Positions 5,898 through 19,908 of a stretch of DNA of 64,000 bases are shown one piece after another. A program made the translations under genes and the position numbers. Each line of letters starts with the position of its first letter. The first letter of the stretch is position 1. Below the pieces are notes generated by a model. The model saw only the letters and a list, made by a program, of their open reading frames with translations, searched no databases and was not told the DNA's origin. The stretch is from Variovorax paradoxus (GTDB lineage Bacteria > Pseudomonadota > Gammaproteobacteria > Burkholderiales > Burkholderiaceae_C). Location of the stretch: assembly GCF_029919115.1 (NCBI RefSeq), contig NZ_CP123990.1, positions 1,240,001 through 1,304,000 of the forward strand, read 5' to 3'.

Positions 5898-7334
5898 ATG
5901 CAAAACTTCGACAACCTGATTGGCGGCGAATGGCGTGCCGGCGCAAGCTACAGCCCCAACCTCAACCCCAGCAACCTGGCCGACGTGCTGGGCCAGTACA
6001 CGCAGGGTGATGCCTCGCACGTCGACGATGCCGTGGCTGCTGCCACCGCCGCCTTCCCGGCCTGGGCCACCGGCGGCATCCAGGCACGCTCCGATGCGCT
6101 CGACAAGATCGGCAGCGAAATCCTCGCCCGCAAGGAAGAACTCGGTACCCTGCTTGCGCGCGAAGAAGGCAAGACCCGCGCCGAAGGCATCGGCGAAGCC
6201 ACCCGCGCCGGCCACATCTTCAAGTTCTTCGCCGGCGAATGCCTGCGCCTCTCGGGCGAGATCGTGCCCTCGGTGCGCCCCAACATCGGCGTGGAAATCA
6301 CCCGCGAGCCGGTCGGCGTCGTCGGCCTCATCACCCCCTGGAACTTCCCCATTGCCATTCCGGCCTGGAAGATCGCACCCGCGCTGGCCTTCGGCAACTG
6401 CGTGGTGCTGAAGCCCGCCGACCTGGTGCCCGGCTGTGCCTGGGCGCTGGCCGAAATCATCAGCCGCTCGGGCATTCCGGCCGGCGTGTTCAACCTGGTG
6501 ATGGGCCGCGGCAGCGTGATTGGCAATGCACTGGTCAACCACCCCGGCATCCATGCCATCAGCTTCACCGGCTCGGTGGGCGTGGGCCGCAACATCGCCG
6601 TCCAGTGCGTGACCAACCACAAGAAGGTGCAGTTGGAGATGGGCGGCAAGAACCCGCAGGTCATCCTGGACGACGCCGACCTGGCCCAGGCCGTGGAACT
6701 GAGCGTGCAAAGCGCGTTCTATTCCACCGGCCAGCGCTGCACGGCCTCCAGCCGCCTGATCGTCACCGAAGGCATCTACCCCAAGTTCATCGACGCGATG
6801 AAGGCCCGCATGGCCAAGATCAAGGTGGGCGATGCACTGGCGCAGGGCACCGACATCGGCCCCGTCTCGTCCAAGTCGCAGCTCGACCAGGACATGGAAT
6901 ACGTGGCCATCGGCAAGGGCGAGGGTGCCACGCTGGCCGCGGGCGGCGAACTGCTCAAGCTGGAGACCGACGGCTACTACATGTCGCCGGCGCTCTTCAG
7001 CGAAACGGCGGCCGCCATGCGCATCAACAAGGAAGAGATCTTCGGCCCGGTGGCGAGCGTGATCCGCGTGAAGAACTACGAAGAAGCGCTGGCCACGGCC
7101 AACGACACGGAGTTCGGCCTTTCTGCCGGCATTGCAACCACGAGCCTGAAGTACGCCACGCACTTCAAGCGCCACAGCCAGGCCGGCATGGTGATGGTGA
7201 ACCTGCCGACGGCAGGCGTGGACTACCACGTGCCGTTCGGCGGCCGCAAGGGCTCGAGCTACGGCCCGCGCGAGCAGGGCAAGTACGCGCAGGAGTTTTT
7301 CACCACGGTGAAGACGGCCTACACGCTGGCTTGA
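5898..7334 (+). CDS. 2,5-dioxovalerate (2-oxoglutarate semialdehyde) dehydrogenase
   Basis: Oxidises 2,5-dioxopentanoate made by KdgD to 2-oxoglutarate with NAD(P), delivering carbon to the TCA cycle. This 478-residue ALDH-superfamily protein has the PWNFP motif, the cofactor-loop FTGSVGVGR, the general base Glu in LEMGGKNPQ and the nucleophilic Cys in STGQRCTASS. The start is the ATG at 5898, preceded by AAGGA; an upstream in-frame ATG at 5856 would add residues not typical of the family. As last gene of the cluster it completes the glucarate to 2-oxoglutarate route. A succinate semialdehyde dehydrogenase is the alternative by sequence alone; context argues against it. Confidence 0.9.
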   Translation: MQNFDNLIGGEWRAGASYSPNLNPSNLADVLGQYTQGDASHVDDAVAAATAAFPAWATGGIQARSDALDKIGSEILARKEELGTLLAREEGKTRAEGIGEATRAGHIFKFFAGECLRLSGEIVPSVRPNIGVEITREPVGVVGLITPWNFPIAIPAWKIAPALAFGNCVVLKPADLVPGCAWALAEIISRSGIPAGVFNLVMGRGSVIGNALVNHPGIHAISFTGSVGVGRNIAVQCVTNHKKVQLEMGGKNPQVILDDADLAQAVELSVQSAFYSTGQRCTASSRLIVTEGIYPKFIDAMKARMAKIKVGDALAQGTDIGPVSSKSQLDQDMEYVAIGKGEGATLAAGGELLKLETDGYYMSPALFSETAAAMRINKEEIFGPVASVIRVKNYEEALATANDTEFGLSAGIATTSLKYATHFKRHSQAGMVMVNLPTAGVDYHVPFGGRKGSSYGPREQGKYAQEFFTTVKTAYTLA

Positions 7335-8670: not shown

Positions 8671-9696
8671 ATGCTGGACATCCTTACGCTCGGCCAGATG
8701 CAGATGTTCGTCGCCGTGGCGGATGCCGGGAGCTTTCGCGCCGGTGCCGCGCGGCTGCACCGCGTGCAGTCGGCGGTGAGCCATGCCATTGCCAATCTTG
8801 AAGAGCAACTGCAGGTGCGGCTCTTCGACCGTTCCGGACACAAGCCGGTGCTCACGCCCACGGGCAAGGCGCTGCTGGGCGACGTGCGGGTGATCCTGTC
8901 GAAGGTCGAGGCGCTGCGCTCGCGTGCGCAGGGGCTCGAGCAAGGCATCGAGCTCGGGCTGGCGATTGCGGTAGACACGCTCTTTCCGCCGGATCTCCTG
9001 GCCAGCGCGCTGCGCGGCATGCATGCGGTCTACCCGAGCATTGCCATCCGCGTGGAATACAGCTCGATGGGCGGCACCATCGATGCATTGAGTTCGGGCC
9101 GCTGCGACCTGGCCATTGCGGCCTTCGGCCATGCCGACGAAAAAATCAGCCGCGAATTCCTGATGGCGCTGCATACGCTGGCCGTTGCGGCGCCTTCCCA
9201 CGCGCTGGCCGTCCATGCGCGGCAACGCGGCGCCAAGGGCCTGGATACCGCGGCGGCAGAGCACGTGCAAATCGTGGTGGAAGACCCGAGCACGCTCAGC
9301 CAGGGCTACGACATCGACGTGCTCTCGCCTTCGACCTGGCGCGTGACCGACATGTACATCAAGCTCGCGCTGCTGCGCGCCGGCCTCGGATGGGGAAAGA
9401 TGCCTTCATGGCTTGTGGCGGGCGACCTGGCCGCGGGAACCCTGGTGCAACTGCCGGTGAGTCGCATCGGCCCTGAAGGCGCGGCAAGCCAGCAGTGCCA
9501 CTTTTGCCACCGCGCCGACAAGACACTCGGTGCAGGTGCCGAACTGCTGCGCGAATGCCTCAAGGCAGAGGCGAAAGCGGCGGCGCCTGGCGGCGGCGCC
9601 GCATCATCATTTCCACGAGTTCGAAGATCCCTTCGCTCAGCAGCGCCAGCGCCGCAGCCGGCAGCGCGCCCGCCAAAAGCAGTTCGCGGTCGTTGA
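8671..9696 (+). CDS. LysR-family transcriptional regulator with extended C-terminus
   Basis: The N-terminal winged helix (QMQMFVAVADAGSFRAGAAR, then VQSAVSHAIANLEEQL) is typical of LysR proteins, followed by a periplasmic-binding-like effector domain that looks complete by about residue 300. The frame continues for some 40 residues rich in Ala, Pro and Arg to residue 341, running antisense to the 3' end of the convergent OpuB gene over 137 bp. This tail is probably not functional and may reflect loss of an earlier stop. It likely regulates the divergent MFS gene. GAGAAG precedes the ATG. Confidence 0.88.
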   Translation: MLDILTLGQMQMFVAVADAGSFRAGAARLHRVQSAVSHAIANLEEQLQVRLFDRSGHKPVLTPTGKALLGDVRVILSKVEALRSRAQGLEQGIELGLAIAVDTLFPPDLLASALRGMHAVYPSIAIRVEYSSMGGTIDALSSGRCDLAIAAFGHADEKISREFLMALHTLAVAAPSHALAVHARQRGAKGLDTAAAEHVQIVVEDPSTLSQGYDIDVLSPSTWRVTDMYIKLALLRAGLGWGKMPSWLVAGDLAAGTLVQLPVSRIGPEGAASQQCHFCHRADKTLGAGAELLRECLKAEAKAAAPGGGAASSFPRVRRSLRSAAPAPQPAARPPKAVRGR

Positions 9697-11122
9697 GTGC
9701 AAGCCCGGTCACGATGCGCTCGCCGAAGCCGCCCGCGCCGATGAACGCCGCAATGGTCGCCGTGCCGATGGCAATGGCCGTGGCCGTTCGAATGCCCGCC
9801 AGCAGGGTAGGCAATGCAAGCGGCAGCAGCACCAGCCGCAGGCTCTGCGGCGGCGTCATGCCAAGTGCGGTGCCCGCCATGCGCAGGCCGTTCGGCACTT
9901 CGGCAAGGCCCGTGACCGTGTTGCGCATGATCGGCAGCAGCGAATAGAGCGTGAGCGCAATCAACGCGGGCAGCGCGCCGATGGCGCCGAGCAGCGAGAT
10001 GAGCACCGCAAGCAATGCGAGCGAGGGCACCGTCTGCAGAATGCTCGCGACACCGAGCACTGCTGCCCGCAGTCGCACATGCGAGAACACCAGGATCGCG
10101 AGCGGCACGCCAATCAGGATCGCGACGCCCACCGACACCGCCACCAGCACCAGGTGCTGCCGTGTGAGCTGCCAGAGGTCGGGTCCGAACAGCTTGGCGG
10201 TGAAACCGCGCCTGGTTTCCTTCTGCTGGGCCTTGCCGCTGTTGCCACTGTTGCCGGCACCGGCCAGGAAGTCGCGCGCAATCGCATCGAAGGGCACGCT
10301 CTGCAGTTCGGCGCGCGCGTTCATCGCAATCATCGCGCGCTCGTCGATGCGGCCTTCGAGCGCCTGCAGCGCGGCCCACGCCTTGGGCAGCCGCGTGGGC
10401 AGGTCGAGCCGGTACAGCAGCACGGCGTCGTAGCGCGGAAAGTAGCTCTTGTCGTCTTCGAGCACGCGCAGGCCGAGATGGTCGATCTTGGCATCGGTGG
10501 TGTAGATGTCGATCGCGTCGATCTGCTTCGCGGCCACCGCTTCGTAGGCCAGCCCATGGTCGAGGCCGGTCGGCGTCTGCGTGAAGCCGTAGCGTGCGGC
10601 AAGGCCCTTCCACCCGTCGGCGCGGCCGATGAACTCGTTCGACAGGCCGAGCTTGAGCTCGGGGTGGCGCGCCAGGTCGCTCAGTGTGCGCAGGCCCAGC
10701 CGTTCGGCGTCGGCTGCGCGCACCGCCAGCGCATAGCCGTCGTTGAAGCCCAGCGGAACGGCCACGCCAAGGCCCAGCGGCGCCAATGCCGCATTCATGG
10801 CCTCGCGTGTTTCGGTCGGCGAACCCTTGAGGATTTCGAGCGCAATGGTGCCGGTGTATTCGGCGTACACATCGATGGCACCCGAGCGCAGCGCCTCGTA
10901 GACGATGGCGGTGTTGCCCAGGCCCTGCCGCACCACGGGCGGCGATGCGCTGTGCGGCGCCGCCGTCTGCGCCAGCAGCTCGGCCAGGATGTACGACTCC
11001 GTGAAGCGCTTGGAACCGACGCGCAGCGGGCCTTCGCCGGGTTGCGCCGATGCAGCGGCGCCGAGCCCGGCAAGGGTGAGCAACAACAGGGCGGTGCGCA
11101 AGATGCGGTGAGGCAGGTGCAT
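9560..11122 (-). CDS. Fused osmoprotectant-type ABC receptor/permease (OpuB/OpuC-like)
   Basis: A 520-residue fusion. After a signal peptide (cut after AAASAQ, about residue 26) comes an OpuBC/OsmF-type substrate domain (RVGSKRFTESYILAELL, then GAIDVYAEYTGT) to about residue 285, then a permease domain with five or six helices and the EAA-like loop MAGTALGMTPPQSLRLVLLP. Known relatives import glycine betaine, choline or other quaternary amines. No ATPase subunit is adjacent on either side, so the partner must be encoded elsewhere. Its 3' end overlaps the convergent LysR frame by 137 bp. Substrate is not predictable. Confidence 0.88.
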   Translation of the reverse strand: MHLPHRILRTALLLLTLAGLGAAASAQPGEGPLRVGSKRFTESYILAELLAQTAAPHSASPPVVRQGLGNTAIVYEALRSGAIDVYAEYTGTIALEILKGSPTETREAMNAALAPLGLGVAVPLGFNDGYALAVRAADAERLGLRTLSDLARHPELKLGLSNEFIGRADGWKGLAARYGFTQTPTGLDHGLAYEAVAAKQIDAIDIYTTDAKIDHLGLRVLEDDKSYFPRYDAVLLYRLDLPTRLPKAWAALQALEGRIDERAMIAMNARAELQSVPFDAIARDFLAGAGNSGNSGKAQQKETRRGFTAKLFGPDLWQLTRQHLVLVAVSVGVAILIGVPLAILVFSHVRLRAAVLGVASILQTVPSLALLAVLISLLGAIGALPALIALTLYSLLPIMRNTVTGLAEVPNGLRMAGTALGMTPPQSLRLVLLPLALPTLLAGIRTATAIAIGTATIAAFIGAGGFGERIVTGLALNDRELLLAGALPAAALALLSEGIFELVEMMMRRRRQAPPLSPLP

Positions 11123-11235
11123 CGGGCGCCAGTGTATAGAGATCGAAGGGCTTCGGGGGCACCCGCCAATCTCCTACAAACCTTGGTGCGGGCTACCGAT
11201 GCGTTGAAGAAGCAGACTCATCCATAGTGCTTGCC

Positions 11236-12288
11236 ATGAACAAGAAAACCCATCTCCCGCCCGGCCCTGACGTTCACGGCCTGCGCGAACTCCCGGGGCT
11301 GCGGGTGGAGGGCTACAGCCTTCAGCTCCGCGACAAGGACGGCTTTGTGGGCGACCAGGCCAGCCAGACAGCGTTCAGGGAGCTGCTCGAGCGCTGGCGC
11401 AAGCGCCGCCGCAAGACCGGTACCGACCCGCTGGGCAAGGAACACTCGCGTGACCTCAGCAAGAAGCAGCTCGACCGCGTGCTGAAAAAGACCTCGGCAG
11501 CCGGCGACCTGATGCACGGCGCCATCGAGGAATTTGCCGAAGAGCTGGCCTTCGTGATCCAGCGCTTCACGCGGCAGCCCTCATGGAAGAAGGTGGAGCG
11601 CATCGTGGTGGGCGGCGGCTTCATCGAGAGCGACGTGGGCGAACGCGCCATTCTGCAGACGGCCGCAATCATCGAAGACATGGGCCTGCACGTTCAGCTC
11701 GGCCGCCTGTCGCACGACGTCGACGACGGCGGCCTGATCGGCTGGGTGCACCTGACGCCGCCCGCCATGCTGAAGAAGCACGACGCCATCCTGGCGGTGG
11801 ACATTGGCGGCACCAATGTGCGCTGCGGCATCGTGAAGACGCGCCGGAACAAGGCACGCGACCTGTCGATGGCCAAGGTCGTGCGGAGGGAGAAGTGGCG
11901 CCACGCCGACGAAGAGCCCAACCGCACCGACATGGTCGAGCGCATCGCGCTCATGCTCGAGGACATGGTTCGCTACTGCGAGCGCAAGGACATCAGCCTG
12001 GCGCCTTTCATCGGCATTGCGTGCCCTGGCCTCATCCGCAAGGACGGCTCGATAGAACGCGGCACGCAGAACCTGCCCGGCGACTGGGAAAGCCGCGCGT
12101 TTCACCTGCCCAGTGCGCTGTGGCGGCGAATGCCGATGATCGGCTCCGGCCCTACGCTCATCCTCATGCACAACGACGCGGTGGTGCAGGGATTGAGCGA
12201 GTTGCCGTTCATGCGCGACGTCTGCCACTGGGGCGTGCTGACGATCGGCACCGGCCTGGGCAACGCGAGCTTCACGAATACCTTCTAG
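11236..12288 (+). CDS. ROK-like kinase-fold protein with permuted half order
   Basis: A 350-residue protein of the sugar-kinase/ROK superfamily with a swapped domain order. In ROK kinases the ATP-site motif DIGGTN comes first and the motifs IVVGGG and GLIG come last. Here residues 70-170 hold the C-terminal-type motifs (VERIVVGGGF at 120-129, DDGGLIGW near 163-170), and residues 185-350 hold the N-terminal-type motifs: DIGGTN at 189, GIACPGL, a HNDAVVQG stretch, and GTGLGN at 338-343, after which the protein ends. That is a circular permutation of the fold. The Zn-finger CxCGxxGC of true ROK repressors is absent. Substrate unknown. A GTG at 11227 is an alternative start. Confidence 0.75.
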   Translation: MNKKTHLPPGPDVHGLRELPGLRVEGYSLQLRDKDGFVGDQASQTAFRELLERWRKRRRKTGTDPLGKEHSRDLSKKQLDRVLKKTSAAGDLMHGAIEEFAEELAFVIQRFTRQPSWKKVERIVVGGGFIESDVGERAILQTAAIIEDMGLHVQLGRLSHDVDDGGLIGWVHLTPPAMLKKHDAILAVDIGGTNVRCGIVKTRRNKARDLSMAKVVRREKWRHADEEPNRTDMVERIALMLEDMVRYCERKDISLAPFIGIACPGLIRKDGSIERGTQNLPGDWESRAFHLPSALWRRMPMIGSGPTLILMHNDAVVQGLSELPFMRDVCHWGVLTIGTGLGNASFTNTF

Positions 12289-13826
12289 CCAGGGGCTGCG
12301 GACGCCGGCGGAACATTGCCGCCGAGGGCCTTGTAGACGGCCACCAACCCCACCGCCAGACGGCTCGTGCTTTGCGCCTGGTCGCGCCGTGCCTGCAGCA
12401 GCGTGCGGCGGGCGTCGAGCTCGACACCGAAATCCGTAAGCCCGTTGGCATAGCGCGCATGCGCCAGCGTGAGCGCGTCGCGGCTGTGGCGTTCGCGCTC
12501 GGCCAGCTCGGCGTGGCGCTGGCGTTCTGCGGCATAGGCATTCAGCGCGGAATCGATTTCGTGCCACGCCTTGAGCACGGTCTGCTGAAAGGCCACGGCG
12601 GCCTCCTGCTGCTGCAGTTCGCGCAGGGTGACCGTGCTCCGGCGCCGGCCATTGTCGAAGATGGGCAGGCTGATGGAGGGGCCGACATGCCACTGCCGGC
12701 TGCCCCATTCGCCGAAACGTTCGCTGCCCACCGATTCGAAACCGAAGCCCGCGCCCAGTGTCACGCGCGGATAGAGATCCGCCACAGCCACGCCGATGCG
12801 CGCAGTGGCGGCATGCAGCTGCGCCTCCGCCGCGGCAATGTCGGGCCGGCGGCGCGCCACGTCCGACGGCAGGCCGAGGGCGAGCTCGGGCAGCGGCGGT
12901 ACCTGCAGTGTCTCGGGCGCTTCGCGCGCGAGTTCGGCTGGCGGTCCGGCAAGCTCGGCGTTCAGCGTACCGGGCGTGGAGCCGGTCAGCAGCGTGATCT
13001 GGTTCATCGCCTGCGCCTCCTGCTGCAGCAGCGCCGGAATGCGTGCCTTCAGTTCGGCCAGTTGCGTGCGCTGGCGCGTCGGGTCCAGATCGGTGACCAG
13101 GCCGCCATTGGCGCGCGCCTGCACCAGTTCGAGAGATTCGGCCGCGGCTTCGATGTCGGCGCGCGCCAAGCGCAACTCGCGCTGTGCGCCGCGCAATTCG
13201 AAGTAGTTGCGCGCCACCTCGGCCTGCACGCTCAGCTGCACCTGGCGCAACAGCGCTGCCGATGCACCCGTGTCTGCATCGGCGGCCTCGATGCTGCGGC
13301 GCACGCGGCCCCACAGGTCGATTTCCCAGGATGCGTCGAAGCCGGCCTGGTAGAGGTTGTAGGGTTCGCTGAGCGTGCGGATCAGCTGGTCGCGGTTGGA
13401 CGCCGGCGAACCCAGCGCATCGATCATTCGCGTCGCTGTACCGCTCTCGCTTTGCCGTTGCCGGCTGATGCCTGCGCTGGCATTGAGTTGCGGGCCTTGC
13501 TGCGCGGCCGTCGCCGTGCGTTGCACGCGGCTTTGTGCGAAGCGCAGGGCGGCGGTCTGCAGTTCGTGGTTGGCCGTGAGCGCAAGCGCCTGCAGGCGGT
13601 CGAGCAGCGGATCATTGAAGGCTTTCCAGTCGCCGGACGCAACGGCCGTGTGCGCCGCAGTTCGCTCAGCTCCCAGGAGCCCCGGCGAGCCGCCGTGCCA
13701 TGCGGACCAATCCGCCGGCGCCTGCGCCTGTGCGGGCCGGTGGTCGGGCCCCACAGCACACCCCGCAAGAAGTAGCGCGAGGGCGGAACAGGAGAAGGAC
13801 AAGAGGAGGGTTCGTGGTGCGGACAT
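12285..13826 (-). CDS. NodT/OprM-family outer-membrane efflux lipoprotein
   Basis: Outer-membrane channel of tripartite pumps, 513 residues. The lipoprotein signal ends in a LLAGCAVGPD lipobox, followed by two repeats of the TolC/OEP domain with long coiled-coil helices (for example LEALVQ-like region near residues 200-230 and the C-terminal YANGLTDFGVELDARRTLLQ). It starts 15 bp after the permease stop and is the last gene of the five-gene ABC efflux operon, so it supplies the outer-membrane exit. Its stop overlaps the convergent ROK-like gene by 4 bp. Confidence 0.92.
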   Translation of the reverse strand: MSAPRTLLLSFSCSALALLLAGCAVGPDHRPAQAQAPADWSAWHGGSPGLLGAERTAAHTAVASGDWKAFNDPLLDRLQALALTANHELQTAALRFAQSRVQRTATAAQQGPQLNASAGISRQRQSESGTATRMIDALGSPASNRDQLIRTLSEPYNLYQAGFDASWEIDLWGRVRRSIEAADADTGASAALLRQVQLSVQAEVARNYFELRGAQRELRLARADIEAAAESLELVQARANGGLVTDLDPTRQRTQLAELKARIPALLQQEAQAMNQITLLTGSTPGTLNAELAGPPAELAREAPETLQVPPLPELALGLPSDVARRRPDIAAAEAQLHAATARIGVAVADLYPRVTLGAGFGFESVGSERFGEWGSRQWHVGPSISLPIFDNGRRRSTVTLRELQQQEAAVAFQQTVLKAWHEIDSALNAYAAERQRHAELAERERHSRDALTLAHARYANGLTDFGVELDARRTLLQARRDQAQSTSRLAVGLVAVYKALGGNVPPASAAPG

Positions 13827-13841
13827 ACGAGGCTCCCGGGT

Positions 13842-14960
13842 TCAGGTCAGGCGATGGCGAAAAAGCCAGGCCGCCAGCGGCAGCGTGACAAGGGCAATGA
13901 CAGAAAGCGGAATCAGGTTGTGCCACACCGTTGCCAGCCCCACGCCCTCCAGGTACACACGCTGCACCAGGTCGATCGCAAAGCGCAGCGGGTTGGCCAT
14001 GGTGATGACCTGCAGTACGTGCGGCATGTTGCGCACCGGCGTGGTCAGGCCTGACAGCAGCATCATCGGCATCAGCAGCACGAAGGTGTAGAGCATGGCC
14101 TGCTGCATGTTGGCCGACACCGCCGAGATCGACAGGCCGATGCCCACGCTGGCCACGGTGAAGAAGACCAGCCCGGTATAGAGCGTGGCCAGCGAGCCCG
14201 CCATCGGAATGCCGAACCAGAGCAGCGCCACCAGCAGAATGAGTGTCGACTGTGCAAGGCCGACCAGCACCGGCGGCAGCGCCTTGCCGATCATGATTTC
14301 GAGCGGCGACATCGGCGTGACCAGCAATTGGTCGAAGGTGCCTTGCTCGCGCTCGCGTGCCACCGAAAGCGCGGTGAGCAGCAGCGTCTGCAGCATGCTG
14401 AGCGCGGCGATCAGGCCGGGCAGCAGGTTCCACCGCGTCTCGAGGTTCGGGTTGAACCAAGCGCGCGATTCGATGGTGAGCGGGGCCATTGGCGCCCCGG
14501 CGCGCGTGCGCAGTTCGGCGTTGTAGCGTTCGACCACCGAGCCCACGTAGCCGGCCGCCGAGCCCGCCGTGTTCGAGTTGCGGGCATCCAGGATCAGCTG
14601 GATGGCCGCGGGCTGGCCGGCGCTGAGCAACTGCTCGAAGTTGGGCGCAATCTGTATCACCATCAGCGCCTTCTCGGTGTCGATCACCTCGCGGATATCG
14701 GCCTGCGTGCGCAGCGTGGCCACCCGATGAAAGACGCCGGTGCTGTCCAGGTGCGCAATCAGCTCCGTCGACGCACCCGTGCGGCTCTGGTCGAGCAGGG
14801 CATAGGGCACGTTCGAAAGGTCGTACGTGGCGCCGTACCCGAAGATGAGGCTTTGCATGATGGCCGGAACGAACAGGATCACGCGGCTTGCCGGGTCCTT
14901 GAGAATGGCAAGCAGCTCCTTGCGGCAGAGGTTGGCGATGCGCAGCAGAAAATCGGTCAT
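13842..14960 (-). CDS. ABC-2 type permease (YbhR-like)
   Basis: Inner-membrane subunit of an ABC exporter, 372 residues. One N-terminal helix (PASRVILFVPAIMQSLIFGYG), a large periplasmic loop of about 140 residues, then five C-terminal helices with the ABC-2 signature REREQGTFDQLLVTPM. The start is the ATG at 14960, 13 bp after the stop of the first permease and behind a GGAAGG ribosome site; a longer upstream frame is not family-like. With the adjacent permease it forms the heterodimeric membrane part. Confidence 0.9.
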   Translation of the reverse strand: MTDFLLRIANLCRKELLAILKDPASRVILFVPAIMQSLIFGYGATYDLSNVPYALLDQSRTGASTELIAHLDSTGVFHRVATLRTQADIREVIDTEKALMVIQIAPNFEQLLSAGQPAAIQLILDARNSNTAGSAAGYVGSVVERYNAELRTRAGAPMAPLTIESRAWFNPNLETRWNLLPGLIAALSMLQTLLLTALSVAREREQGTFDQLLVTPMSPLEIMIGKALPPVLVGLAQSTLILLVALLWFGIPMAGSLATLYTGLVFFTVASVGIGLSISAVSANMQQAMLYTFVLLMPMMLLSGLTTPVRNMPHVLQVITMANPLRFAIDLVQRVYLEGVGLATVWHNLIPLSVIALVTLPLAAWLFRHRLT

Positions 14961-14973
14961 GGGGCGCCTTCCG

Positions 14974-16110
14974 TCAGTCGAGGCTCTTGCGCGTGACGGC
15001 GCGGGCAAGCAGCAGCAGCCCGACCGCATAGGCCGCGAGGATTGCGCAGTTGCGCAAGATCAGAGGCCAGACGTCGCCGGCGAGAAACAGTGTCTTGATC
15101 AGGTCCATGAAGTAGGTGGCCGGCAGCACATGGCCGATGGCGCGCACCACGGCAGGCACATTGCGCAGGTCGAACAAAAAGCCCGACAGCATCATCGAAG
15201 GCATGAAGGTTGCGATCAGCGCCACCTGGCTCGCGAGAAACTGATTGCGCGTGACGGACGAGATCACGAGGCCAAGGCTCACCGCCACGATCAGGTAGAG
15301 CATCGAACTGAGCACCACCGCGAACGGCGAGCCGACCATGGGCACCGCGAACAGAAAGCGAGCGGCCAGCAGGCACAGGGCCAGGCCCAGCATGCCCACC
15401 GCAAAGTACGGAATGATCTTGGCCAGCAGTATTTCTACCGGGCGCACGGGCGTGACGAACAGCGCCTCGAGCGTGCCGCGCTCCCATTCGCGTGCCATGA
15501 CCAGTGCGGTGAGAAACGCGCCGACCAGCGTCATGATGAGCACGATGAGCCCGGGTACCAGGTACCAGGTGCTGGTGTTCGCGGTGTTGAACCACATGCG
15601 CTGCTCCACCGTCACCCGGCCGATGACGGGGGCGTCTGCGCCGGTGGTGCGCCCGCCGCGGTCGGCCTGCCGCACGGCCGTTTGCGCGAGAGCGCCGCTT
15701 ACGTAGGCCAGGATGATGGTCGCGCGCCCGGCGTCCGCGCCGTGCACGATGAGCTGCACGCGCGCGTTGCCCGCGGCCAGCGAGCGCGAAAAGTCCGCCG
15801 GCACGCGCACGATGCCGTCGATCTTGCGCTCGCGCATCAACGCCTCGGCGTCGTGCATGGAGCCGAGCAGCACGGGCGCGATGGTGGGCGAGAGCTGCAG
15901 GCCGGCAATGGCTTCATGCGCCGTGGGCGACGAGTCTTCGAGCACCACGCCCACCGGTGCGTTCTTCACGTCGAGCGACATACCGTAGCCGAAGATCAGG
16001 ATCAGCACCATCGGCAGCAGGATGCCGATGGCCAGGTTGCTTCGGTCGCGCAGCAACTGGCGAAACTCCTTGCGCGTGAGCGAGATGAGCCGGGTCCAGA
16101 AGCCGCTCAT
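14974..16110 (-). CDS. ABC-2 type permease (YbhS-like)
   Basis: Second membrane subunit of the exporter, 378 residues, same topology as its neighbour: one N-terminal helix (NLAIGILLPMVLILIFGYGM), a long periplasmic domain and five C-terminal helices with REWERGTLEALFVTPV. Its ATG overlaps the ATPase stop by 4 bp (ATGA), indicating translational coupling. Two paralogous permeases and one double ATPase match the YbhFSR arrangement. Confidence 0.9.
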   Translation of the reverse strand: MSGFWTRLISLTRKEFRQLLRDRSNLAIGILLPMVLILIFGYGMSLDVKNAPVGVVLEDSSPTAHEAIAGLQLSPTIAPVLLGSMHDAEALMRERKIDGIVRVPADFSRSLAAGNARVQLIVHGADAGRATIILAYVSGALAQTAVRQADRGGRTTGADAPVIGRVTVEQRMWFNTANTSTWYLVPGLIVLIMTLVGAFLTALVMAREWERGTLEALFVTPVRPVEILLAKIIPYFAVGMLGLALCLLAARFLFAVPMVGSPFAVVLSSMLYLIVAVSLGLVISSVTRNQFLASQVALIATFMPSMMLSGFLFDLRNVPAVVRAIGHVLPATYFMDLIKTLFLAGDVWPLILRNCAILAAYAVGLLLLARAVTRKSLD

Positions 16111-17915
16111 GCCGCCACCTTCTCGCTTTCCTTCTCGCTTTTTATATGGCGCTCTTGCCGACGCGCTTTCTCGACGATTCCGATGAAGGCCTGTTCCATG
16201 TCGATGCGCTGTTCTTCCCGCTCACCGTCGAGCGCCTGCGCCCGCACTTCGAGCGGGGTGCCGATGGCCAGCACCTTGCCCGCGTCCTGGATCACGATGC
16301 GGTCGCAGTATTCCGCCTCTTCCATGAAGTGGGTCGTGATGACGACGGTGGTGCCGCCTTCGGCCAGCGCCGTGATGCGGCGCCAGAACTCGCGGCGCGC
16401 GAGCGGGTCGGCGCCGCTGGTGGGTTCGTCCAGAAAGAGAATCTCGGGTTCGTGCAGCAGGCCCGTCGCCATGGCAAGGCGCTGCTTGTAGCCGCCGGGC
16501 AGCTGTCCGCTGGGCGCGTCGAGTTCCCGCTCCAGGTCGAACTGGCGCAGCACGGTGTCCATGCGCGCCTGCAGCTTCTGTCCGCGCAGGCCGTAGGCGC
16601 CGCCGAAGAACGAAAGGTTCTCGCGCACGGTAAGGTTGCCGTAGAGCGCGAATTTCTGCGACACGTAGCCGATGCGCTGCCGGGCCTGCGCGCGCGCATG
16701 GCGCAAGTCGACGCCGGCCACGCGCAACTGGCCGCCGCTGGCGGGCAGCAGGCCGCAGAGCATGCGAAAGGTGGTGGTCTTGCCCGCGCCGTTGGGCCCG
16801 AGCAGGCCGAAGATTTCGCCGCGCCGCACGGAGAAGCTGGTGCTCGCCACGGCCACGAAGTCGCCGAAGCGGCGCACCAGGTCTTTCACTTCGATGACCA
16901 CTTCGCCGGGCTCGCCCGCGGCCGGGGCAAGGCTATCGGCCACCGCTGGTTGCGCTACTGCAGCGGGTGCCTGCTGCGTGCGCAGCAGCGTCATGAAGCC
17001 GTCTTCAAGCCGGGGCGGCACCGGTTCGGCACGGGCGCCGGCCAGCAGCGCCGCAAGCGCCGCATCGCCGGTGCCGGGCCGGCGGATGAAGCGCACCTCG
17101 CCGCCGTGCGGAACGGCATCGACGATGTCTTGCTGCGCATCGAGCAGGCGGGCCTGCATCAGGCGCGGTGCCTCGCCCGGCGGCGGCGTGGCGACGAAGC
17201 ACAGGCCCTCGGCGCGGTCGCGGATCTCGGCCGGCGTGCCTTCTGCAATCAGCTGGCCTTCGCGCAGCACGAACACATGGCTGCAGCGCTCGGCCTCGTC
17301 GAGGTAAGCGGTGCTCACGATGACGGAAAGTTTTTCTTCGTCGACCAGCTGCTGAACGATCTGCCAGAGCTCGCGCCGCGAGAGCGGGTCAACACCCACG
17401 GTGGGCTCGTCGAGCAGCAGCAGGTCGGGCGAGCGCACCAGCGTGCAGGCCAGGCCGAGCTTCTGCTTCATGCCGCCTGACAATTTGCCCGCGGGGCGGT
17501 CGGTAAAGCGGCCGAGGTCGGTCATTTCCATCAGCCGCGCATAGCGGTCGCGCCGCTGCGTAGGCGGCACGCCGTGCAAGTCGGCGTAGAGGTCGAGGTT
17601 CTCCTGCACGCTCAGGTCTTCGTAGAGGCCGAAGCGCTGGGGCATGTAGCTGATGCGGTCCTGCACCGCCTGCGGGTCGGCGGATACATCGATGCCCAGC
17701 ACGCGCAGTTCGCCTTCGTCGGCGCGCATCAGGCCGGCCATGAGCCGCAGCAGCGTCGTCTTGCCCGCGCCGTCGGGCCCGACCAGCGCGGTGAGCGTGC
17801 CGGCAGGAATTTCGAGCGACACGCCGTCGAGCGCGTGCACGGCTGTCTTCGACGCCTTGACCGTGAAGCGCTTGTGCAGCGAGCGTCCGCTGACGGCCGG
17901 CTCAGCGCGCAGCAT
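16107..17915 (-). CDS. ABC exporter ATPase with two fused nucleotide-binding domains (YbhF-like)
   Basis: 602 residues with two complete ABC domains. Domain 1: Walker A VGPDGAGKTT at residues 45-54, signature LSGGMKQ near 145, Walker B LLLLDEP at 165-171. Domain 2: Walker A LGPNGAGKTT near residue 373, a modified signature LPGGYKQR, and Walker B ILFLDEP. The Ser-to-Pro change in the second signature is seen in other YbhF-type ATPases. A linker of about 100 residues separates the halves. It powers export of hydrophobic or cationic compounds through the adjacent permeases. Confidence 0.92.
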   Translation of the reverse strand: MLRAEPAVSGRSLHKRFTVKASKTAVHALDGVSLEIPAGTLTALVGPDGAGKTTLLRLMAGLMRADEGELRVLGIDVSADPQAVQDRISYMPQRFGLYEDLSVQENLDLYADLHGVPPTQRRDRYARLMEMTDLGRFTDRPAGKLSGGMKQKLGLACTLVRSPDLLLLDEPTVGVDPLSRRELWQIVQQLVDEEKLSVIVSTAYLDEAERCSHVFVLREGQLIAEGTPAEIRDRAEGLCFVATPPPGEAPRLMQARLLDAQQDIVDAVPHGGEVRFIRRPGTGDAALAALLAGARAEPVPPRLEDGFMTLLRTQQAPAAVAQPAVADSLAPAAGEPGEVVIEVKDLVRRFGDFVAVASTSFSVRRGEIFGLLGPNGAGKTTTFRMLCGLLPASGGQLRVAGVDLRHARAQARQRIGYVSQKFALYGNLTVRENLSFFGGAYGLRGQKLQARMDTVLRQFDLERELDAPSGQLPGGYKQRLAMATGLLHEPEILFLDEPTSGADPLARREFWRRITALAEGGTTVVITTHFMEEAEYCDRIVIQDAGKVLAIGTPLEVRAQALDGEREEQRIDMEQAFIGIVEKARRQERHIKSEKESEKVAA

Positions 17916-17940
17916 TCAACGTCCCTCCTGGCATGCGGCC

Positions 17941-18048
17941 TTGCTCCTTCCCCTCTCGGGGGAAGGTTGGGATGGGGGCAGGGCAGAGCGCCCGATGGAC
18001 ACGCTGCTTGCCCCCACCCCAGCCCTCCCCCGGAAGGGGAGGGAGCAA
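17941..18048. repeat. Large intergenic palindrome inside the efflux operon
   Basis: Arm 17941-17980 and arm 18009-18048 are 40-nt near-perfect reverse complements, with a 28-nt loop. The arms are rich in CCCCT/GGGGA runs, resembling the repeated intergenic palindromes scattered through many proteobacterial genomes. It separates the adaptor gene from the ATPase gene, so it would form a long hairpin in the operon mRNA. Confidence 0.75.
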
Positions 18049-18077
18049 TGCGCGACGACGAGCGATGAGGTTCGTCA

Positions 18078-19088
18078 TCACGGCCTGCCGTTCGAAGTCA
18101 GCTGCAGCCGCACGGTCGCCGGCATGCCGAGCCGCAGCCGGTCTTCCTTGTCGTCGACCATCACGCGTATTTCATACACGAGGCTGCTTCGCAGCTCTTC
18201 GGTCTGCACCGTCTTGGGCGTGAACTCGGCCACCGACGAGATGTAGCCCACCTTGCCAGCCACCGGCTGGTCGGGTTGGCTGTCTGTGGTCACGCTTGCC
18301 TGCTGCCCGGGGCGCACGCGGCCCAGGTTGGGTTCGGCCACATAGGCGCGCACCCACTTGGGATCGGTGATGGCCAGCGTGAAGGCCGGGCGCTGCGGCG
18401 AGGCCATATCGCCGGGTTCGAGCAGGCGGGCGCGCACCACGGCATCGATGGGCGACTTGAGCTCGGCTTCTGCCAGCTGGTGATTCATGAGCGCGAGGTC
18501 GGCGCGGGCCGATTCGAGCTGCGCCTGCGCCTGCGCGATGTCTTCCTTGCGCGGGCCGGCCACCGCGAGCTGCTGTGCCTTGCGGGCGTTGTCCAGCTGC
18601 GCCAGCGCCACCTTGCGGCGGGCCTGAGCGCTGTCGAGGTCTTGCTGGCTCACGGCGCGGCCGGCCGTGGTCTGGCCGATGGCCTGCAGGCGCGCGAGCT
18701 GCTGCTGCGCCAGGTCGGCATCGGCCTGCGCGGCGGCCACCTGGGCGCCGGCCTGCGCCAGTTCTTCGGGGCGGCTGCCGGTCTTCAGGCGCAGAAGGGC
18801 CTGCTCCTGCACGCCGATGCGCGCCTGCGACTGCGCCACGCGCAGCGCGAGCGAGCGGGTGTCGAGCTTGCCGAGCAACTGCCCGGCGCGCACACGGTCG
18901 CCTTCGCGTACGGCGAGTTCCGCCACGCGCTCATTCGCGTTGAAAGCCAGCGAGACCTGGCGCACATCGACATTGCCGTACAGCACGAGCGTGTCGGATG
19001 GCGGAGCCGAGCGATGGACGTACCACCAGCCGCCCGCCGCGGAAGCGAGCGCCACGAGGGCAACGGCGATGAGAGGTTTCTTGTTCAT
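18078..19088 (-). CDS. HlyD-family membrane fusion protein (YbhG-like)
   Basis: Periplasmic adaptor joining the inner-membrane ABC exporter to the outer-membrane channel. 336 residues: N-terminal signal anchor (PLIAVALVALASAAGGWWYV), a lipoyl/barrel-sandwich half near residue 60, a long alpha-hairpin with coiled-coil heptads (residues 85-205, for example AQAQLESARADLALMNHQL) and a C-terminal beta-barrel. The ATG at 19088 is used because the signal anchor follows it directly. It is the first gene of the operon, divergent from the TetR repressor. Confidence 0.9.
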   Translation of the reverse strand: MNKKPLIAVALVALASAAGGWWYVHRSAPPSDTLVLYGNVDVRQVSLAFNANERVAELAVREGDRVRAGQLLGKLDTRSLALRVAQSQARIGVQEQALLRLKTGSRPEELAQAGAQVAAAQADADLAQQQLARLQAIGQTTAGRAVSQQDLDSAQARRKVALAQLDNARKAQQLAVAGPRKEDIAQAQAQLESARADLALMNHQLAEAELKSPIDAVVRARLLEPGDMASPQRPAFTLAITDPKWVRAYVAEPNLGRVRPGQQASVTTDSQPDQPVAGKVGYISSVAEFTPKTVQTEELRSSLVYEIRVMVDDKEDRLRLGMPATVRLQLTSNGRP

Positions 19089-19132
19089 GAGCGGTTCCTG
19101 CCGGGTTCCAGACTTGGAGTAGCCGCATGTTA

Positions 19133-19154
19133 TCAAATTGAAATTTGAATTTGA
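19133..19154. promoter_or_regulatory. Candidate CecR-type operator between TetR gene and efflux operon
   Basis: TCAAATT-GA-AATTTGA at 19133-19148 is a perfect inverted repeat, and AATTTGA occurs again at 19148-19154. The 97-bp divergent region is strikingly AT-rich against its GC-rich surroundings. The position, 45 bp before the HlyD start and 32 bp before the TetR start, suits repression of both genes. Confidence 0.55.
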
Positions 19155-19185
19155 AGTATTTTTTCATTTCGTTTAACCTTGGGCT

Positions 19186-19908
19186 ATGGCTTCCCGCTCT
19201 TCCAGCACCCGTTCTCCCGCTCCACGCTCCACTGCCGCGCGCACCCCCCGCACCGACGGAAACGCCACCCGACTGCACATCCTCGAGACGGCAGGCCAGC
19301 TGTTCGCGGAGCGCGGCTTTGCCGAAAGCACCAGCAAAGAGATCTGCACCCGCGCCGGCACCAACATGGCCGCCGTCAACTACCACTTCGGCAGCAGGGA
19401 CGGGTTGTACGAAGCCGTGCTCATCGAGGCGCACCGCCAGCTCGTGAGCATGGACGAGCTGGTCAGCCTGGCCAGCGTGCAGGCCGACCCCCGGCTCAAG
19501 CTGCGCACCTTTCTCACGCACCTGATGGAGATGGGCAGCCAGCCCAAGGCGCCCTGGGGATTCCGCGTGGTGCTGCGCGAGGCGCTGTCGCCTTCACCGG
19601 CGCTGCCGGTGATGGTGCGCCAGGCGGTGCTTCCCAAGGCCAAGCTGATCCGCGGCCTGATCGGCGGCATCATGGGCCTGCCGGACGATCATCCCTCGGT
19701 GCAGCGGGCCATGCTTTTCGTGGTGCTGCCCTGCATCGTGATGACGGTCGCCCCGAAGGACTTGCGCAACGAAGTGCTGCCGGCGCTGAAGAACGCCGAA
19801 GGCCTGGCGGACGACCTGATGCGATACGTTTTCGCCGGCCTCGATGCCGTCGCGAAGGAAGCGAAGGCCGCAACGCCCGCCGCTGCTACAGCTGGAAAGC
19901 GACGGTAA
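19186..19908 (+). CDS. TetR-family repressor (CecR/YbiH-like)
   Basis: 240 residues. An Arg/Ser/Pro-rich tail of about 22 residues precedes a TetR helix-turn-helix (GFAESTSKEICTRAGTNMAA then VNYHFGSRDGLYEAV), followed by an all-helical ligand domain like the CecR (DUF1956) C-terminus. In Escherichia coli CecR is linked to the ybhGFSR exporter and affects drug sensitivity; here the same exporter genes lie divergently, with an AT-rich palindrome between. The 3' end overlaps the convergent cardiolipin synthase by 23 bp. Confidence 0.88.
   Translation: MASRSSSTRSPAPRSTAARTPRTDGNATRLHILETAGQLFAERGFAESTSKEICTRAGTNMAAVNYHFGSRDGLYEAVLIEAHRQLVSMDELVSLASVQADPRLKLRTFLTHLMEMGSQPKAPWGFRVVLREALSPSPALPVMVRQAVLPKAKLIRGLIGGIMGLPDDHPSVQRAMLFVVLPCIVMTVAPKDLRNEVLPALKNAEGLADDLMRYVFAGLDAVAKEAKAATPAAATAGKRR

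Follow-up and report, generated by a model that had tools for sequence, protein, structure and literature searches.

A ROK-type protein of Variovorax paradoxus with the motif order of a circular permutation, and its relatives in soil and root bacteria

The window analysed here is a stretch of 64,000 nucleotides from Variovorax paradoxus (contig NZ_CP123990.1, positions 1,240,001 to 1,304,000), and the gene in question occupies positions 11236..12288 of its forward strand. The encoded protein has a ROK fold that is very probably circularly permuted, its new ends lying immediately behind the GTG loop. An alternative start codon, GTG at 11227, would add 3 amino acids to the product beginning with ATG at 11236. 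The motifs along the chain start at the following residues: IVVGGG at 123, GLIG at 166, DIGGTN at 189, IACPG at 261, QNLPG at 278, HNDA at 312 and GTGLGN at 338, after which only 7 residues remain before the C-terminus. The positions of IVVGGG, GLIG, DIGGTN and GTGLGN and the end of the chain at GTGLGN, named earlier in a sequence-only reading, are thereby reproduced. The linear order is GGG, GLIG, DIGGTN, HNDA, GTGLG, and the canonical ROK order (DxGGT, NDA, GTGxG, GGG, GLIG) is not found. The features of the gene are listed below, with residue conservation counted over 328 sequences including the query (307 distinct cores).

11236..12288, forward strand: whole gene of the circularly permuted ROK-type protein, an open reading frame of 350 amino acids plus stop.
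11269..11763, forward strand: N-terminal half (residues 12-176), matching the canonical ROK C-terminal half.
11275..11277, forward strand: H14, at the new N-terminal edge near the expected ExGH site; H in 322/323 entries.
11602..11619, forward strand: IVVGGG (123-128), adenosine-side motif of the ROK C-terminal half; G126-128 in 326/326 entries.
11731..11742, forward strand: GLIG (166-169), the last ROK motif, with D163 just before it; D163, L167 and G169 in 327/327 entries.
11752..11784, forward strand: linker (residues 173-183), with a short helix at 176-181 in the secondary structure of the model.
11770..12285, forward strand: C-terminal half (residues 179-350), matching the canonical ROK N-terminal half.
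11800..11817, forward strand: DIGGTN (189-194), phosphate-1 motif; D189, G191, G192 and N194 in 327/327 entries.
12067..12081, forward strand: QNLPG (278-282), containing N279; N279 in 327/327 entries.
12169..12180, forward strand: HNDA (312-315), motif of the catalytic Asp, D314; N313 and D314 in 327/327 entries.
12247..12264, forward strand: GTGLGN (338-343), phosphate-2 motif, now C-terminal; G338, T339, G340, G342 and N343 in 327/327 entries.

The permutation is well supported by the predicted structure and the profile test taken together. The AlphaFold model of the whole protein has a predicted local distance difference test score (pLDDT) of 89.5 and a predicted template modelling score (pTM) of 0.88, with residues 1-11 forming a short low-confidence tail. 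The ROK fold is found in both halves of the predicted models, and the match to ROK structures is obtained in two halves. When the N-terminal half is modelled by itself, the structures it superposes on best are ROK C-terminal halves. The linker at residues 173-183 would be the joint between the old C-terminus and the old N-terminus.

Trimmed alignments were compared as profiles by hhalign, where C-half stands for the C-terminal half of the permuted protein (the old N-terminal half) and N-half for its N-terminal half. Against a profile of 34 canonical ROK proteins in global mode, the native order scores 68.1 and covers 155 columns; the C-half alone scores 71.5 and the N-half by itself 27.4 (ROK columns 172-317). 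Placing the C-half before the N-half gives 90.2 over 290 columns (ROK 11-317, P 1.2e-16). The local scores are 76.4 for the native order, 76.4 for the C-half, 33.0 for the N-half and 89.2 for the rejoined profile. When the columns of the N-half were shuffled 100 times, the rejoined score did not exceed 73.0 (global) or 80.3 (local); for the N-half by itself the maximum after shuffling was 26.5 (local). A narrower profile of 21 ROK sequences gives 47.8 for the rejoined halves in global mode versus 32.0 and 24.1 for the separate halves; in local mode the N-half alone scores 32.9 versus a shuffle maximum of 22.7.

Several results weigh against a permutation. Rejoining the halves brings no gain with the 21-sequence profile in local mode, and the N-half profile finds no significant match among PDB sequences (2aa4 has E 0.43 and ranks below an unrelated chain with E 0.11). 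Native-order alignments, the hexokinase rows and the reversed control are also contrary. The native-order alignments would suit an arrangement without permutation, in which a truncated ROK domain forms the C-terminal half and follows an unrelated domain whose glycine-rich motifs are coincidental, or in which the protein is some other actin-fold protein in its native order. This is very improbable: the N-terminal half superposes on ROK C-terminal halves and the rejoined profile exceeds all shuffles. Truncation and an unrelated N-terminal domain were set aside on the structure matches and the profile and shuffle tests. The permuted ROK fold proposed in the sequence-only reading is supported by the predicted structure and the rejoined-profile score. 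The early GGG and GLIG motifs do not appear to lie in a separate unrelated domain, since their region superposes on ROK C-terminal halves, and the ROK C-terminal half has not been lost by truncation: it sits at the N-terminus.

The Pfam ROK model recognises just half of the permuted protein. PF00480 scores 24.0 bits on the whole protein versus a gathering threshold of 22.9, yet only positions 2-96 of the 294 in the profile are covered, and the N-half alone matches no Pfam family. Joining the halves as one rearranged sequence adds only 1.4 bits, which is not counted as proof. Hexokinase (PF00349) and bacterial glucokinase (PF02685) give weak partial Pfam matches (18.5 bits; 13.1 for the C-half alone), both below the cut-offs; their motif DxGGTNxR resembles DIGGTNxR of the window protein. 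Compared with the ROK kinases (PF00480; glucokinase 3vgk and the N-acetylmannosamine kinases 2yhy and 5nck), the protein shares DxGGT, NDA, GTGxG, GGG and GLIG, but its halves are reversed, the chain ends after GTGxG, and neither CxCGxxGC nor an ExGH in the N-terminal region is present. The inorganic polyphosphate/ATP-glucomannokinase 1woq is matched over its residues 11-162; it is not permuted, because these residues are its N-terminal half.

The same order is common to a large family. Two homologue searches each gave at least 8000 scored matches at E <= 1e-3, so the family may number thousands of proteins; the best 120 of each search, 240 in all, were examined. A homologue search for the same order had been called for by the sequence-only reading, and 239 of the 240 are colinear with the query in one domain across residues 25-340. 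The colinear alignment replaced a strict motif-order pattern, which was too strict and missed 100 of the 240. The window and 87 further loci (77 distinct genes) were compared likewise, and 87 of these 88 entries align colinearly in one domain; with counts of this kind the motif order is not due to chance. The exceptions are P0112, which is without query residues about 96-139, and L029 (Variovorax sp. J22R193, 6001-7014), whose open frame spans only query residues 55-348. The tblastn match at L029 spans 13-348, which indicates a frame break or a sequencing problem near the N-terminus.

Hundreds of relatives of the same order occur in soil and root bacteria. Matches at E <= 1e-20 (identity 46-100%) were found in 22 of 398 Pseudomonadota genomes, the window's own included, and in the order around G253 there are matches at E <= 1e-40 in 27 of 199 genomes, with G253 counted among them. 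A search of 72,556 plasmid records gives 206 matches (Rhizobium 111, Sinorhizobium 79, Shinella 9, Bradyrhizobium 3 and one each under four further names), with query coverage of 80% or more in 200; none of the phage records searched matches the permuted protein. At E <= 0.01 the C-half profile finds no unpermuted relative in ten genomes holding canonical ROKs, and it matches none of the canonical ROKs of the window's own genome. The single order common to the family suggests one founding event. In two genomes (G031 and G035) the permuted gene is present and there is no canonical ROK at E <= 1e-10.

In the V. paradoxus genome the gene is present as one copy. A Pfam ROK search of this genome gives five matches, the window gene not among them; we read these as four canonical genes, with two of the matches side by side in one 413-codon frame. 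The comparison with the homologue at L001 counts 62 synonymous and 16 non-synonymous codon differences, which is consistent with purifying selection. Database labels vary from 'ROK family protein', 'glucokinase' and 'predicted NBD/HSP70 family sugar kinase' to 'hypothetical protein' or none; where present, they conceal the rearrangement as well as the loss of the substrate motifs.

Besides the residues listed above, R196, W221, G265, W284 and H312 are invariant in 327/327 entries, and position 193 is T or S in 324/327. The invariant set includes the phosphate-1, catalytic, phosphate-2, adenosine and connect motifs known from ASKHA and ROK proteins, and N279 of QNLPG would, as in ROK enzymes, act at the substrate. 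ExGH is the ROK substrate motif, and CxCGxxGC is the ROK zinc motif, which is not universal. ExGH occurs in 6/328 entries, in all of them at offset 120 or later and in none in the N-terminal region, and is present in 31/34 canonical ROKs; the zinc motif is found in 0/328 entries versus 29/34 canonical ROKs. Residue 40 is D in 324/326 entries and otherwise E. Both D40 and H14 are near the ExGH region, and one may speculate that they could replace the lost substrate contacts.

The ATP and catalytic motifs are retained, and both ExGH and the zinc motif are missing; this combination favours a protein that is still active as a kinase but has a changed substrate site. We consider kinase activity of the permuted protein probable, and it likely acts as a small-molecule kinase. 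The same two absences would also suit a permuted protein that is no kinase but binds ATP and, as a sensor or regulator, senses a metabolite through the ROK cleft; some ROK proteins are non-enzymatic repressors, and part of the family has a stress-type promoter (see below). We regard such a sensor as rather unlikely, because N313, D314 and other ATP and catalytic residues are nearly invariant, and the N-terminal tail (residues 1-11) is too short to place a helix-turn-helix before the ROK halves.

The genes next to the permuted gene differ between clades, and so there is no fixed operon at the loci examined. Context genes were called by a rule based on GC content at third codon positions (GC3), which may miss or misplace genes; the permuted gene of L109 itself was not called. 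The neighbour in the window is the following:

9560..11122, reverse strand: divergent gene for a fused substrate-binding/permease protein of the glycine-betaine/osmoprotectant ATP-binding cassette (ABC) type; NCBIfam choline permease, OsmF and ProW all match below their cut-offs.

Its counterpart at L029 is matched by Pfam OpuAC at 5.5e-54. Among 11 plasmid regions, otsB is divergent from the permuted gene in 6 (R. leguminosarum 3, R. phaseoli 1, Shinella 2). The otsB position is taken by a peptidase of the NAGGN osmoprotectant system in an S. meliloti region and by a hypothetical gene in Sinorhizobium sp. B11; in Phyllobacterium an aldolase gene lies upstream on the same strand as the permuted gene. 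The remaining 2 are an unannotated S. meliloti record and a Bradyrhizobium match that is a fragment. The locus tag SMb20472, considered for the S. meliloti gene, was rejected, as it belongs to arcB2. By locus, a trehalose-phosphatase gene (otsB) divergent from the permuted gene is seen at L110, L116, L117, L148, L149, L150 and L152, and at L116, L149 and L152 the pair lies near plasmid rep genes. Other neighbours elsewhere include rplU, KaiC-like, DUF892, OpuAC (L029) and sulphur transporter genes.

Upstream regions of up to 250 nucleotides before codon 14 were collected, and those at least 80% identical were dropped, reducing 87 to 64. Loci outside a list of betaproteobacterial loci were treated as non-betaproteobacterial ('alpha'). 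The strict promoter pattern GGAAC-N16/17-CGTT of the EcfG/RpoE2 general stress regulon, used after a looser first pattern, occurs in 13 of the 41 dereplicated non-betaproteobacterial regions, where the remaining sequence of these loci predicts 0.33; the genomes behind several of the 13 are related, and these cases do not count as independent. Shuffling gives a mean of 0.065 and a maximum of 2 in 200 shuffles; before dereplication the motif is carried by 16 of 52 regions. The betaproteobacterial regions, the window included, have it in 0/23 after dereplication and in 0/35 overall. On the reverse strand the motif is present in 7/41 regions (L121, L122, L123, L132, L133, L134 and L140), where it was assumed to be the promoter of the divergent neighbour; L121-L123 have it on both strands, which suggests divergent stress promoters. 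Passages of PMC6180224 print RpoE2-regulated promoters of S. meliloti in this form.

A stress role in alphaproteobacteria appears moderately probable. In rhizobia only, the promoters and the neighbours point to a putative member of the general stress response with a role in osmolyte- or trehalose-related metabolism, which makes the gene a concrete candidate for rhizobial osmolyte metabolism. This stress or osmolyte role is a testable lead; for the Variovorax gene the neighbour alone points to it. A special case of the permuted kinase would be a polyphosphate/ATP-dependent glucokinase that directs glucose-6-phosphate to trehalose synthesis under stress. We find it unlikely, since human ManNAc kinase ranks first with the family profile, ExGH is absent and otsB adjoins the gene in some clades only.

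The permuted kinase may be pictured as follows. The ancestral ROK C-terminal half, with GGG and GLIG, would have moved to the front of the chain, tied by a linker of ~10 residues to the ancestral N-terminal half with DxGGT and NDA. With the chain terminating directly behind the GTGxG strand, the new termini would adjoin the part of the fold where ordinary ROKs carry ExGH. The usual two-lobed architecture is probably kept, with the intact motifs holding ATP in the cleft and D314 serving phosphate transfer to a small sugar-like substrate. This substrate may well be unlike that of ordinary ROK kinases, as ExGH and the zinc motif are gone. We propose only tentatively that one permutation in Pseudomonadota opened the sugar-recognition loop with loss of ExGH, giving a new class of enzymes that act on a new substrate, were drawn into general stress or osmoprotection and spread via chromosomes and plasmids in soil and root bacteria.

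To our knowledge no natural circular permutant of a whole ROK or other actin-fold kinase has been described. A literature search on permuted ROK, glucokinase, hexokinase, sugar-kinase, actin-like and ASKHA proteins found no paper on a permuted ROK among those listed, with most subscription journals outside the search, so this absence is not proof. In portions of PMC1976428, PMC7701253, PMC10326533 and PMC7824862, words for permutation and for ROK or sugar kinases stand in unconnected places. The permuted family is a natural test of the tolerance of the ROK fold for new termini at the substrate loop.

Downstream of the gene, at 12285-19908 of the window, the list of open reading frames alone suggests a run of efflux-system genes: an outer-membrane lipoprotein, two ABC-2 type permeases, a double ABC ATPase, a membrane-fusion protein and a TetR-like regulator. 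At L111 (9093-9773) the product of the gene immediately 3' of the permuted one belongs to the T4 gp19 phage tail tube family.
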